Shown: positions 4,944-47,780 of the stretch, one piece after another | Position numbering within the stretch: the first letter of the stretch is position 1 | Layout: every line of letters begins with the position of its first letter | Assembly: GCA_016744755.1 (NCBI GenBank) | Contig: JADGDT010000005.1 | Span: forward strand, 5,938 to 66,048 | Reading direction: 5' to 3' | From: Ichthyobacteriaceae bacterium | GTDB taxonomy: Bacteria; Bacteroidota; Bacteroidia; Flavobacteriales; JADGDT01 | DNA: 60,111 nucleotides | The notes under the pieces: generated by a model | The model's database searches: none | Seen by the model: only the letters and a program-made list of their open reading frames with translations | Told to the model about the DNA's origin: nothing | Position numbers and translations under genes: made by a program

Positions 4944-5405
4944 ATGACACATTTAAATATAGGAGATAAAGCACCCGATTTCAAAGGGTTAGATCAGAAT
5001 GGCGAAGAGGTAAAATACTCTGATTATGCAGGTAAAAAAGTGGTTTTATTCTTCTATCCAAAAGCTAGTACACCTGGTTGTACTGCCGAAGCAAAAGATT
5101 TGAGAGATCACTACGAGGATTTAAAATCAAAAGGATACGAAGTTATCGGAGCTAGTGCCGATTCGCAAAAAAGACAACTCAATTTCTGTACTAAAAACGA
5201 GTTGCCTTACAAGTTAATTGCCGACGAAGAAAAGGAAATAATAAATGCTTACGGTGTTTGGGGTCCTAAAAAAATGGCAGGACGTGAGTACGAAGGTATT
5301 TATAGGACAACATTTGTAATTGACGAGAACGGAGTTTTAGAAGATGTAATTACCAAAGTAAAAACTAAAGAACACACAGCTCAGATTTTAACAAAAAGCT
5401 TATAG
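4944..5405 (+). CDS. bcp: Thioredoxin-dependent thiol peroxidase (Bcp/PrxQ)
   Basis: A 153-residue peroxiredoxin of the Bcp/PrxQ group, expected to reduce hydroperoxides in the cytoplasm at the expense of thioredoxin. The peroxidatic Cys46 lies in YPKASTPGCTAEAKDLRD, with the usual Pro-x3-Thr/Ser-x2-Cys active site. The resolving Cys often found five residues later is Lys here. The only other visible Cys is in LNFCTKNELPYKL, so the enzyme may work as a 1-Cys type or use that distant Cys. FFYPK and the TFVIDENG strand near the end are typical. It lies 84 bp before recA on the same strand; no terminator is seen between them, so the two may be co-transcribed. Confidence 0.92.
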   Translation: MTHLNIGDKAPDFKGLDQNGEEVKYSDYAGKKVVLFFYPKASTPGCTAEAKDLRDHYEDLKSKGYEVIGASADSQKRQLNFCTKNELPYKLIADEEKEIINAYGVWGPKKMAGREYEGIYRTTFVIDENGVLEDVITKVKTKEHTAQILTKSL

Positions 5406-17904: not shown

Positions 17905-17970
17905 TCGTCATCTCGACCAACGACAGGAGTGGAGAGATCTTTTCACTCAACTAAGATGTTATTTCATCAC
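17905..17970. repeat. CGTCATCTCGACC-type intergenic repeat
   Basis: The stretch starts CGTCATCTCGACCAACGACA and continues through GGAGTGGAGAGATCTTTTC. CATCTC and GAGAGAT can pair. From memory, elements starting CGTCAT(C/T)TCGAC and ending GAGAGATCT are scattered between genes in Bacteroidota genomes. Only one copy is in this window, so the repeat status is not shown here. Confidence 0.35.
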
Positions 17971-18000
17971 GATTTCACGACTTCACTAAAAACTAAAAAA

Positions 18001-18492
18001 ATGAAAATACTACTAATGTCTGATACTCACGGAACGCTTGATGAGTTGATGATAAAATACATAAATACTGTTGATGAAGTTTGGCACGCTGGAGATATTG
18101 GCAATGTTGACGTTACTGATAGTATCAAAAAAATTAAACCCCTACGAGCAGTTTATGGCAATATTGACGGAACAGAATTACGCAAGGAATTTCCTCTTCA
18201 CAATAGATTTGAAATTGATGGTGTAGATGTGTGGCTCACTCACATTGGTGGTTACCCAGGAAACTACGCTTACGAGCTAAGAAGTGAAATAAAAAAAAAT
18301 CCGCCTAAGCTATTTATTAGTGGGCATTCTCATATTTTGAAAGTAATAAATGATCAGAAGTTAAACTTGCTTCACATGAATCCTGGTGCAATTGGTAAAT
18401 CTGGTTTTCATAAAAAACGTACAATGTTACGTTTCGAAATTTCTGATTCTACAATTAAGAATTTAGAAGTTATAGAACTGGGAGATAGGTAG
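18001..18492 (+). CDS. YfcE/MJ0936-type metallophosphoesterase
   Basis: A 163-residue calcineurin-like phosphoesterase. The metal-binding blocks follow in order: MSDTHG (D-x-H), EVWHAGDIG (GD), VYGNID (GN), WLTHIGG (H), and FISGHSHILK (GHSH). Size and order fit the YfcE/MJ0936 group of small phosphodiesterases with unclear substrates. ATG 18001 was chosen over the in-frame start at 17929, because the latter codes through the intergenic repeat and the fold begins MKILLMSDTHG. A heptamer array follows the stop codon by 8 bp. Confidence 0.88.
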   Translation: MKILLMSDTHGTLDELMIKYINTVDEVWHAGDIGNVDVTDSIKKIKPLRAVYGNIDGTELRKEFPLHNRFEIDGVDVWLTHIGGYPGNYAYELRSEIKKNPPKLFISGHSHILKVINDQKLNLLHMNPGAIGKSGFHKKRTMLRFEISDSTIKNLEVIELGDR

Positions 18493-18500
18493 TCTTAGAG

Positions 18501-18535
18501 TTGCGGGTTACGGGTTACGGGTTGCGGGTTGTGGA
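18501..18535 (+). repeat. Heptamer array TTnCGGG with G-quadruplex pattern
   Basis: Units of 7 bp: TTGCGGG, TTACGGG, TTACGGG, TTGCGGG, then a decaying TTGTGGA. The four GGG tracts (18505-18507, 18512-18514, 18519-18521, 18526-18528) are separated by 4-nt loops, which meets the G-quadruplex pattern. It starts 8 bp after the phosphoesterase stop codon. The same heptamer, same orientation relative to the gene, follows tolC (46348-46417). Confidence 0.8.
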
Positions 18536-19071: not shown

Positions 19072-19150
19072 GGTAGGGATTGCTTCGCGTCCCTTTGCTT
19101 CAGTCTTGAGAATACAGCACTTCATAAAGGAAACTTTATTCGTGGCATCC
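19072..19150. repeat. GATTGCTTCGC hairpin element, copy B
   Basis: Begins GGTAGGGATTGCTTCGCGTCC and ends near GGCATCC. It aligns by eye with copy A (18559-18634), with changed stem bases. It runs directly into copy 2 of the Flavo-1-like element. Confidence 0.5.
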
Positions 19151-19157
19151 ATCCTGA

Positions 19158-19260
19158 AGCGGTAGGGATAGAGGCGGCATCCTTTTTTTAACTCGGGGGG
19201 GCGACTTTAAGTCGCACTCCGAGTTAAAAAAAGATATAGCCGAAAGCCCGCTCGACCGCC
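19158..19260. ncRNA. Flavo-1-like structured element, copy 2
   Basis: Same framework as 4708-4793: GGGATAGAGGCGGCATCC, a long hairpin, then GATATAGCCGAAAGCCC. Here the outer stem is GCGGT (19159-19163) with ACCGC (19255-19259), the inner GGC pairs with GCC, and the hairpin arms TTTTTTTAACTCGG and CCGAGTTAAAAAAA pair perfectly around a second palindrome, GCGACTTTAAGTCGC. Stem bases differ from copy 1 yet still pair. Flavo-1 assignment is from memory. Confidence 0.6.
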
Positions 19261-44522: not shown

Positions 44523-45815
44523 ATGTCAGAGAAGGCAATTTTAAAAGTAAAAGGAAAAGAGATAGAATTAGATGTAATAGAAGGAACAGAGCAAGAAGTT
44601 GCAGTTGATATATCTAAACTTAGAGGTCAGTCGGGAGTAATAACTATAGACCCAGGCTACAAAAATACAGGAGCTACAAAAAGTGCTATTACTTTCCTTA
44701 ATGGAGAGCTAGGAATACTTCGTTACAGAGGTTACACAATAGAAGAATTAGCTGAGAAAGCATCTTTCTTAGAAGTTGCATGGTTATTGATTGGTGGTGA
44801 GCTACCAACTAAAAGACAACTTAATAAGTTAGAAAAAGATATTAAAAACAATCAAATTGTTCATGAGAGAATGAAAAAGATTGTTGAAGAGTTTCCATCT
44901 ACTGCTCACCCAATGGGAGTATTAGCATCTATGGTTTCGGCACTTACAGCTTTCCATCCAACTACTCTTAATCCTAACAACGACAATAAAGAGGATTACT
45001 TAAATATGGTTAAACTTTTAGCTAAGTTACCTACTCTTGCTGCATGGACTTTCAGAAAAAACATAGGTAGACCAATTAACTATCCTAACCCAAAATTGGA
45101 CTATACATCTAACTTCTTGTACATGATGAATAGCTGTCCTAATTCTGATTACAAAGCAGACCCTATTGTTGCTAAGGCTTTAAACGTATTATTGATACTT
45201 CATGCTGATCACGAGCAAAACTGTTCTACTTCTACAGTACGTATAGTTGGTTCTTCAAATGCAAGTATGTATGCTTCTGTATCTGCAGGAATTGGTGCTC
45301 TTTGGGGGCCATTACACGGTGGTGCAAACCAAGCGGTAATCGAAATGCTTGAAGCTATTAAAGCTGATGGTGGCGATGCTGGAAAATATATTGCAAAAGC
45401 CAAAGACAAAGAAGATCCATTCCGTTTAATGGGATTCGGACATAGAGTTTACAAGAATTTCGATCCACGTGCTACTATTCTTAAAAAGTATGCTGATGAT
45501 GTTCTTAAAGCTTTAGGTATTCAAGATCCAATTCTTGAAATAGCGAAGAGTCTTGAAGAAACTGCTCTTAACGATCAGTATTTTATTGATAGAAAATTAT
45601 TCCCTAACGTAGATTTCTACTCAGGGATTATTTATCGTGCACTTGGTATTCCTACTGATATGTTTACAGTAATGTTTGCATTAGGTCGTTTACCAGGATG
45701 GATTGCTCAATGGAAAGAAATGAGAGCTAACCACGAGCCTATCGGTCGTCCTCGTCAGGTTTACACAGGTTACACAGAACGTGGATTTGTAGAAATGGAT
45801 GGCAGAAAAGAATAA
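44523..45815 (+). CDS. gltA: Citrate synthase
   Basis: A 430-residue type II citrate synthase, catalysing oxaloacetate plus acetyl-CoA to citrate at the start of the TCA cycle. Catalytic segments are present: HEQNCSTSTVR (first His), GPLHGGANQAV (second His) and GFGHRVYKNFDPRA (His/Arg with the Asp further on). The N-terminal small beta domain (ILKVKGKEIELDVIEGTEQE) marks the hexameric, NADH-regulated type II group, though NADH control is not proven. It is transcribed alone between two terminators. Confidence 0.97.
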   Translation: MSEKAILKVKGKEIELDVIEGTEQEVAVDISKLRGQSGVITIDPGYKNTGATKSAITFLNGELGILRYRGYTIEELAEKASFLEVAWLLIGGELPTKRQLNKLEKDIKNNQIVHERMKKIVEEFPSTAHPMGVLASMVSALTAFHPTTLNPNNDNKEDYLNMVKLLAKLPTLAAWTFRKNIGRPINYPNPKLDYTSNFLYMMNSCPNSDYKADPIVAKALNVLLILHADHEQNCSTSTVRIVGSSNASMYASVSAGIGALWGPLHGGANQAVIEMLEAIKADGGDAGKYIAKAKDKEDPFRLMGFGHRVYKNFDPRATILKKYADDVLKALGIQDPILEIAKSLEETALNDQYFIDRKLFPNVDFYSGIIYRALGIPTDMFTVMFALGRLPGWIAQWKEMRANHEPIGRPRQVYTGYTERGFVEMDGRKE

Positions 45816-45840
45816 CCTTTAACCAGTTATATAAACCCGA

Positions 45841-45875
45841 AAACCGTTAATCTTTATTGATTAACGGTTTTTTTT
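45841..45875 (+). terminator. Terminator of gltA
   Basis: AAACCGTTAATC (45841-45852) pairs with GATTAACGGTTT (45859-45870) around TTTATT, followed by a T run. Confidence 0.93.
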
Positions 45876-46085
45876 AGTTTTATACATGGGCAGTTTCACG
45901 TGCTGTACGTTAAAGTTATTTCTCACAAGTATTTTCGAAAATGCCCATAAAATTGTCTTCGCTTAGGCGTAAGCCAACTTTATAGGCTTTCTCAATATAC
46001 TTCTTCAAAACAAGCTACCACTTCCATCACTACTGCAAAACCAAACACCTAAGCTCTACAAAGTCCATTCGAAACAAACGGAAGT

Positions 46086-46330
46086 CCTACGAGCGGGCAA
46101 AACTCCTCGTAGTGTCTGGGTTTAAAATATACATTTCTAATTTTAATTCGACACTCGTAGTTCTACAACTTATCTACCGTCAGGCAGGCACTAAGAGGTC
46201 AATATAGTTGAGTGAAAATGAAAAATCACAACTAAACAAAAAGTTTAATTGTGATTTTTTTATAATTTAAATTTCAACTTAGATATTCCCTATTTTAAAT
46301 CCTACACTCGTAGGTCTTCGACACTACGAG
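46086..46330. repeat. Cluster of CTCGTAG/CTACGAG inverted repeats
   Basis: The 7-mer CTCGTAG or its complement occurs five times: 46087-46093, 46106-46112, 46154-46160, 46307-46313 and 46324-46330. The first two and the last two form 7-bp hairpins. GTGTC or GACAC often adjoins it. No ORF is in this stretch. Confidence 0.6.
46220..46260. terminator. Bidirectional terminator between gltA and tolC
   Basis: AAAAATCACAACTAAAC pairs with GTTTAATTGTGATTTTT (one mismatch), with T runs on both strands. It can end the efflux operon from the minus strand. Confidence 0.8.
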
Positions 46331-46347
46331 GTCTATATTTCTCTAAA

Positions 46348-46417
46348 CCCGTAACACGAAACCCGTAACACGTAACTCGAAACCCGAAACCCGCAACTCA
46401 AAACACGTAACTCGAAA
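46348..46417 (-). repeat. Ten-unit heptamer array after tolC
   Basis: Ten consecutive 7-bp units. Read along tolC (minus strand): TTTCGAG, TTACGTG, TTTTGAG, TTGCGGG, TTTCGGG, TTTCGAG, TTACGTG, TTACGGG, TTTCGTG, TTACGGG; consensus TTnCGnG. An eleventh unit-like TTTAGAG follows at 46341-46347. The array starts 1-2 nt after the tolC stop codon. Same unit and same orientation as 18501-18535. Confidence 0.9.
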
Positions 46418-46418
46418 A

Positions 46419-47780
46419 CTACATCTGCACTTCTGCCATAAATAATCCTGCTAGTTTCATTAATTTCAGCTCGGCTACTTTTGCCAAGTATTTTGCTTCG
46501 TTGTATCTGTTTATAGAATCTTCTAAATCTACTTGTGCTTTTCGGTAATCAATAGAGTTTATTTGACCAAGAGCATTTTTATCTCTAGAATATTCGAAAT
46601 TCAATTGATTGGTTTGCATATTTTTTGACTCTGCCTTCATCACGTAAATAGAATTTTCGTAAACTACAAAAGCGTTAGAAACCTCTCTTTCTAAGTTGTT
46701 TTTTTGATTGTACGATTCTTCCTGAGCATTAAGTTCGGCTATCTTAGAATTTTGAACATTAACACTTGTTTTTCCTCCATCAAAAATATTCCAGCTCAGT
46801 GTAGCATTTGCGTTAAAACCCTGTGATTCGCTATGCATAGGGAGTCCTATTATCCCGTTTTCACTATCTGAATAACTCCCAGAATAACCGCCTTTTAAAT
46901 CTACTTTAGGCATATATCCCGATCTATTTGACTTCTTCATTAATTCTGCAATATCAACATTTTGCAAAGCCAAAAGATAATCTACATTCTGCTCTAGTGC
47001 TAATTCTAGCATTTTATCTTCATTTATATCCTTACTAAATAAGACTAAAGTATCTACTTCAAAAGGAGTTCGAACATTACGCGCTAGTAAACCATTAAAA
47101 TCTCTACGTGCAACTTTTAAATCTCTGTTTGTATTAATCAGATTAATACTATCGTTATTCATATCAACCTCAGACCGTAACATATCTAGCTTACCAGCCT
47201 GCCCATACTCAAACTTTGAAGTAGTAAGCATATGACGTTCATTAGATATTTCTATAGTTCTACGTTGATTTTCAAGTTTAGAAGTAAGCTTAGCCACATC
47301 GTAGTAAGCAATTATTAAGCTCATCAATATATTTTCAATTACAGCTCTACTTTTAAGTTCTTCTAAAGTAAAACTAGATTGGAATTTTTGATAGTTGTAA
47401 TATCTCCCCATACCATCGAAAAGGCGATAATTTAAGGCTATACCATAATTGTATGACTCGGTTGTAGCTCCATCAGCTTCAGTTGCAGGATTATTACCTG
47501 TTTTATTATAAACATCGTCAACCTTATAAGTTGCTCCCCCGTTAGTGTTTAAAGTAGGCAAGAAACCAGAGTTCATTAAACCAGCATTATTTTCAGCTAT
47601 TTTAATATTGTTTCTAGCTATTTTAATAGTGTGATTCTTCTTCATAGCTATATCCACAGCATTATTGATGCTAATAACATCAGCCTTTACCTCTATTGCC
47701 ACACTAGTTGTATCTTCCTGTGCAAAAATTAGCATAGGAAATACCAACACCACAAATAAACTATTTATTTTCTTCAGCAT
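46419..47780 (-). CDS. TolC family outer-membrane efflux protein
   Basis: A 453-residue outer-membrane channel subunit with a signal peptide (MLKKINSLFVVLVFPMLIFA). The two TolC repeats are visible as long helices with INNAVDIAMKKNHTIKIARNNIKIAENNAGLM and the second copy LELALEQNVDYLLALQNVDIAELMKKSNR, each followed by beta strands (NGGATYKVDD and LSWNIFDGG). It would complete the RND pump: its start overlaps the end of the RND gene by 20 bp. It is the last gene of the marR-led operon. Confidence 0.93.
   Translation of the reverse strand: MLKKINSLFVVLVFPMLIFAQEDTTSVAIEVKADVISINNAVDIAMKKNHTIKIARNNIKIAENNAGLMNSGFLPTLNTNGGATYKVDDVYNKTGNNPATEADGATTESYNYGIALNYRLFDGMGRYYNYQKFQSSFTLEELKSRAVIENILMSLIIAYYDVAKLTSKLENQRRTIEISNERHMLTTSKFEYGQAGKLDMLRSEVDMNNDSINLINTNRDLKVARRDFNGLLARNVRTPFEVDTLVLFSKDINEDKMLELALEQNVDYLLALQNVDIAELMKKSNRSGYMPKVDLKGGYSGSYSDSENGIIGLPMHSESQGFNANATLSWNIFDGGKTSVNVQNSKIAELNAQEESYNQKNNLEREVSNAFVVYENSIYVMKAESKNMQTNQLNFEYSRDKNALGQINSIDYRKAQVDLEDSINRYNEAKYLAKVAELKLMKLAGLFMAEVQM

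Follow-up and report, generated by a model that had tools for sequence, protein, structure and literature searches.

A heptamer array past the stop codon of a tolC-family gene belongs to a lineage-restricted class of outward-pointing intergenic simple-sequence repeats

Bacterial genomes hold an excess of heptanucleotide repeats, the cyanobacterial STRRs among them, for which polymerase slippage has been proposed. Slippage was likewise proposed for the long simple-sequence repeats of Mrazek 2007, with their excess of heptamers (cited in PMC4679880 and PMC4692102). Heptamers of the GGGNATC type (GGGAATC or GGGGA(C/T)T) were described in Xanthomonas and Nostoc by Rehm 2015; they are mostly intergenic, and their G-rich strand runs antisense within 50 bp upstream of ORFs or in sense past their stop codons (PMC4692102). 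These repeats form inverted convergent pairs and vary in length among relatives; quadruplexes were favoured as their explanation, while their function was left open (PMC4692102). MacGregor 2015 described TAACTGA direct repeats in Beggiatoaceae, cyanobacteria and some Bacteroidetes, which are intergenic, often just ahead of start codons and in one orientation, and for which translational regulation was proposed in the Beggiatoaceae; they were also reported, with other heptamers intermixed, from several species that include Gramella forsetii, A. sublithincola and Elizabethkingia anophelis (PMC4679880).

The arrays described here resemble the GGGNATC repeats in having a 7-bp unit, an intergenic location, a G-rich strand that points outward from genes (26:7 at 3' edges and 33:1 at 5' edges) and inverted pairs. 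They differ from them in their unit, which is TTDCGDG (where D is any base but C) along with many others, in occurring in another phylum, in a unit that varies between loci and between sister species, and in that most arrays lack quadruplex potential yet are polar. With the TAACTGA repeats they share the form of intergenic heptamer arrays, and TAACTGA-like units even stand beside TTDCGDG arrays in the same genome (L034, L037); however, the TAACTGA unit is fixed and often precedes starts, whereas the arrays of the window are of TTDCGDG and lie past stop codons. As in the class of long simple-sequence repeats, the tandem unit is 7 nt, the arrays are longer than chance would give, and they are enriched outside coding sequence; neither polarity at gene edges nor turnover of units at orthologous sites figures in the descriptions of those repeats, or of STRRs, so far as later papers relay them.

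The array that began this study lies in the window, i.e., the whole 60,111-nt stretch of Ichthyobacteriaceae DNA that was analysed. Direct reading and a script both gave ten contiguous, in-phase heptamers with no spacer on the minus strand (46348..46417, read from 46417 down), just as an earlier note on this DNA had claimed. Units 1-5 are TTTCGAG, TTACGTG, TTTTGAG, TTGCGGG and TTTCGGG, and units 6-10 are TTTCGAG, TTACGTG, TTACGGG, TTTCGTG and TTACGGG. Nine of the ten match TTDCGDG exactly, the exception being unit 3, in which T replaces C at position 4. Only positions 3 and 6 vary freely, which the note had also observed, and neither ever holds C. A degenerate eleventh unit, TTTAGAG, directly follows unit 10 (46341..46347, minus strand), and units 6-7 are an exact copy of units 1-2, which suggests a multi-unit duplication. 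Tandem Repeats Finder called the array at periods 7, 14 and 21, and arrays of three or more units were absent from all 40 dinucleotide-preserving shuffles of the window.

A single nucleotide separates the array from the TAG stop (46419-46421) of a 453-aa ORF (46419..47780, minus strand) for a TolC-family outer membrane efflux protein (Pfam PF02321 OEP, E 1.3e-48), upstream of which lie an RND pump gene and an HlyD-type gene. On the far side of the array is a convergent citrate synthase gene (44523..45815, plus strand) with a terminator-like hairpin of its own (45839-45872). Along the tolC strand, the stop codon is followed by the array, then by about 80 nt and then by a hairpin of 17 pairs with a T-rich tail, resembling an intrinsic terminator (46221..46259, minus strand), so that the array probably lies within the tolC 3' UTR; indeed, it is probably nothing more than transcribed 3' UTR between stop and terminator, with no dedicated function. 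A search of the array against RNA families returned no known family above threshold, and a sub-threshold match to Flavo-1 (RF01705; 25 bits, E 0.007) was seen between the tolC and citrate synthase genes (45892-46038, minus strand). In a genome of the same genus (G001, locus L085), the tolC orthologue (56% identity) has its stop, about 75 nt and a similar A/T hairpin terminator but no array. The simplest account is that the tolC array was inserted, or expanded, between stop and terminator in the lineage of the window. A TolC scan of genome contigs recovered only distant relatives, none above 45% identity, and did not turn up an empty site.

The like-oriented unit that the note had placed behind a phosphoesterase gene 28 kb away is also present, as four TTDCGDG units (TTGCGGG, TTACGGG, TTACGGG and TTGCGGG; 18501..18528, plus strand) that begin 8 nt past the stop of a 187-aa calcineurin-like phosphoesterase ORF (17929..18492, plus strand; Pfam PF12850 (Metallophos_2), E 3.6e-32). 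Both arrays have the same orientation relative to the gene upstream. A Flavo-1 RNA (RF01705) scoring above the gathering score lies at 19147-19257 (plus strand).

Over the whole window genome (G000), a pattern of three exact TTDCGDG units matched 85 times, compared with 2 matches for the pattern read backwards, and about 18 arrays were found. This exact pattern had no match in the two genomes of the same genus; one of these, G002, nevertheless showed a period-7 intergenic excess made of other units, e.g., TCTTTTA and GTGTTTG, with seven intergenic arrays at period 7, four at period 14 and none at other periods. No period-7 intergenic arrays were found in G003, from another family of the same order. 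Order-wide, TTDCGDG arrays are rare, the strict pattern placing them in 11 of 394 genomes, but they recur in a genus from a different family, where 33 of 118 genomes had them. We guess that this related genus is one of the Weeksellaceae, perhaps Chryseobacterium; Elizabethkingia, for which MacGregor 2015 reports assemblages of heptamers, is related to it. The tolC array is one of a fast-changing class of intergenic heptameric simple-sequence repeats restricted to certain lineages. A pattern anchored at the edges missed most arrays, because their edges are ragged. Several arrays run up against an N gap or the end of a contig, which makes draft copy numbers unsafe: in L035, which has 15 successive TTACGGG units, and in L036, L038 and L041 (contigs C69, C77, C111 and C219), arrays coincide with contig ends, N gaps or duplicated flanks, so that they break the assembly and the number of units given for them is unreliable.

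Other repeats were seen in the company of these arrays. An interspersed element, CCTTCGGCTNCGCTCAGNAAC, occurs at L031 3433-3453, L035 5009-5029, L041 5090-5110 and L044 5104-5124, and also in L045, L253 and L260, the last holding four copies at 31-bp spacing; in the window genome it adjoins the gene-proximal side of several TTDCGDG arrays. Arrays of the TAACTGA/TAACTGT type stand opposite TTDCGDG arrays within a shared intergenic region of this genome (L034 2200-2420 and L037 near 5000-5050). In L031 (2950-3400), long GTGGTTGGTGAGC-like and GAGCCGAACCA-like arrays with periods of about 12-14 share an intergenic region with a TTGCGTG array, and in L163 about seven copies of TTTAGGA, telomere-like in composition, lie mid-intergenic in a region with TTDCGDG units at its edge.

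To look at the period independently of the unit, we took an unbiased 400-kb sample from each of three genomes, G412, G417 and that of the window. Intergenic tandem segments of period 7 numbered 14 in G412, 8 in G417, 6 in the window genome and 7 in G002, and other periods that are not multiples of seven gave 0-5 each. Seven was the commonest intergenic period, clearly in G412 and G417 and weakly in the window genome (6, against 5 at period 8). Coding sequence held 0-2 period-7 arrays, as opposed to 6-14 in the much smaller intergenic space, shuffled G412 gave no period-7 segments, and the unit sequences of the intergenic arrays were many.

Orthologous sites show this diversity at a single place. 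In the leader of a 348-aa gene, whose neighbour looks like a glycosyltransferase gene, six sister species carry a homogeneous 7-bp array between the element TTTACCTTTG, which we take to be the Bacteroidota-type -7 promoter element, and the start codon, and no two of them share a unit (CCCGAAA, CCCTAAA, CCCTAAT, CCTCTAA, CCCGCAA and CCCGTAA). The other 25 loci examined at this gene, more distant species among them, are free of the array. Frame-based phase variation was discarded as an account of the leader array, as by our own reading there is no upstream start between promoter element and gene start. Downstream of a 250-aa gene, the stop codon is followed in three species by arrays of TTTCGGG, TTTCGAG or TTGCGGG, at least five further species have a different series of G/T-rich heptamers in the same sense orientation (by eye, GGATTAG and TAGGTTG/CAGGTTT-like), and the rest have none. 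Array lengths also vary between orthologous sites, each species being represented by one genome. Period, place and polarity are retained while the unit sequence changes.

The arrays were almost always intergenic, as judged by a simple codon-model gene caller whose start sites may be off by some codons. In about 85 arrays, drawn from the window genome and the related genus, the TTDCGDG strand points outward from the nearer gene edge whatever the strand of the gene, i.e., it is in sense past stop codons and antisense ahead of start codons, and half of the arrays lie before starts. The related-genus loci had been picked by the TTDCGDG pattern (no C at positions 3 and 6), a choice that leaves polarity unbiased. 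Once orthologous repeats in that genus were removed, 59 of 67 arrays were outward (26 of 33 at 3' edges, 33 of 34 at 5' edges), including all nine arrays between convergent genes. The earlier note had proposed placement at 3' ends, which a placement random in gene end and strand would have contradicted; the scan of the genome and its relatives bore out the non-random place and strand, whereas a rule of "after stop codons" proved too narrow, since arrays occur at either gene edge, half of them antisense before starts. A role specific to tolC, or one limited to 3' ends, was rejected for the same reason, other genes being flanked as well.

With at least two units demanded at each edge, 16 intergenic regions (a few of them mutually orthologous) had inward-facing units at both edges and none had the opposite arrangement, while four had same-direction units in both halves. 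In the unbiased samples the G+T-rich strand pointed outward in 12 of 13 arrays in G412, 5 of 8 in G417 and 6 of 6 in the window genome, and the inward arrays were all of weaker G+T bias. Polarity is clear for G/T-rich units only; pyrimidine-rich or A/T-rich heptamers follow it poorly. In G002, pyrimidine-rich arrays (TCTTTTA and variants; L290, L292) deviate from outward polarity at 3' edges. Background composition was dismissed as a seed: array-free 3' edges are almost without skew, and 5' edges are slightly enriched in T/G, over their first 20 nt only.

These arrays combine period 7, edge-hugging intergenic placement, outward polarity of the G/T-rich strand and turnover of the unit, with absence from the same-genus tolC orthologue. 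We consider it reasonably likely that they are heptamers amplified by slippage, with place and polarity filtered by selection at gene borders. Arrays would be born and rapidly homogenised by DNA slippage in 7-nt steps, as the note had proposed for a favoured unit; the period-7 excess and the homogeneous turnover at orthologous sites support this, and it is from these, rather than from copy-number changes, that we infer slippage, with one genome per species in the comparisons. Growth of an array into a gene would be purged, so that arrays stop sharply at the stop or start codon, and selection acting on the transcript may filter their orientation. Ahead of a start codon, the C/A-rich strand would be tolerated as a leader, having few start codons and little G, while G/T-rich repeats would supply TTG or GTG starts in stop-free frames: read in the gene's direction, CHCGHAA contains no ATG, GTG or TTG, and TTDCGDG gives TTG/GTG starts without stops. 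Selection on leaders accounts for polarity at 5' edges, but not for the bias at 3' edges (9:0 between convergent genes), for which no tested reason suffices.

Function at the level of the transcript is possible, if rather improbable. Here the arrays would be RNA border elements (terminator aids, stability elements, leader elements or partners in 5'/3' pairing) that keep period and polarity as the sequence drifts. The six sister species are in keeping with this, having kept site, period and polarity despite the change of unit; the inverted pairs could form stems; and in Xanthomonas, quadruplex-capable repeats are found at transcript ends more often than controls (PMC4692102). However, the similarity of paired arms within a region ranks anywhere from first to last of 16: the arms of a pair are not regularly copies of each other, nor regularly more alike than arms taken from different regions. 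This speaks against a conserved hairpin, and a perfect hairpin between paired arms was rejected. Furthermore, distant species lack the array at the 348-aa gene, the G001 tolC orthologue does without one while both genomes have an ordinary hairpin terminator there, and the adjacent genes, by our own reading, look varied. The note's suggestion of a protein or RNA that reads the repeat found no support as far as a particular sequence is concerned, and a TTDCGDG-specific reader is not supported, as the unit changes from one locus to another and, at a given locus, from one sister species to the next; TRAP-like triplet binding was dropped because its spacing differs.

Less likely still is a directional birth, in which intergenic breaks gain G/T-rich heptamers at their 3' ends, by telomere-like addition or by slippage on a 3' overhang, before being rejoined, leaving outward repeats from both flanking genes. 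The 16 inward-facing pairs against no outward-facing ones, independent of gene strand, have the polarity of 3'-end extension; arrays begin at gene edges, as expected if deeper damage were purged; and some units are telomere-like (TTTAGGG in G412). Since the symmetric outward rule is the expected trace of such extension, we retain this reading, at low probability. Speaking against it, no polymerase or reverse transcriptase was linked to the arrays, many arrays lie at one edge only, and the promoter element is intact on the far side of the leader array. Ku-dependent end joining is not required, with arrays in 6 of 18 Ku-less genomes and 27 of 100 Ku-bearing ones.

That the arrays are a mobile element, or a REP/REPIN-like repeat whose arms are heptamers, is very unlikely: inverted pairs in intergenic regions recall such elements, but no common centre was seen by eye, arm length is variable, the unit sequence differs between loci and the unit is not palindromic. 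G-quadruplex elements, of the sort put forward for the GGGNATC repeats, are scarcely credible as the general cause, for although four successive GGG-ending units fit the G3-N4 motif (e.g., the 15 units of L035), the motif is absent from 68 of 84 scored arrays and from that of tolC, and arrays without four successive GGG tracts are nonetheless polar (63 outward and 5 inward, against 13 and 3 for quadruplex-capable ones), which largely refutes it.

As the same polarity has already been published for the GGGNATC repeats (PMC4692102), the class and its direction rule are known, and the present arrays extend them, adding the TTDCGDG family, a lineage, turnover of the unit at orthologous sites and polarity without G-quadruplex potential. 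The polarity rule, unexplained in Xanthomonas and Nostoc since 2015, is now seen in a third phylum with unrelated units, and its recurrence with such units and without quadruplex potential weakens sequence-specific and quadruplex explanations. It points instead to action on period and strand composition, either 7-nt slippage with border selection or directional repair. That a directional DNA process, extending 3' ends by 7 nt at intergenic breaks, stands behind the polarity in several bacterial phyla is, in our estimate, unlikely; if true, it would mean that intergenic DNA is rewritten directionally between fixed genes, with the unit drifting freely and converging on telomere-like G/T repeats. 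Sister species with different units at one site offer a ready system in which slippage with selection may be separated from directional repair.
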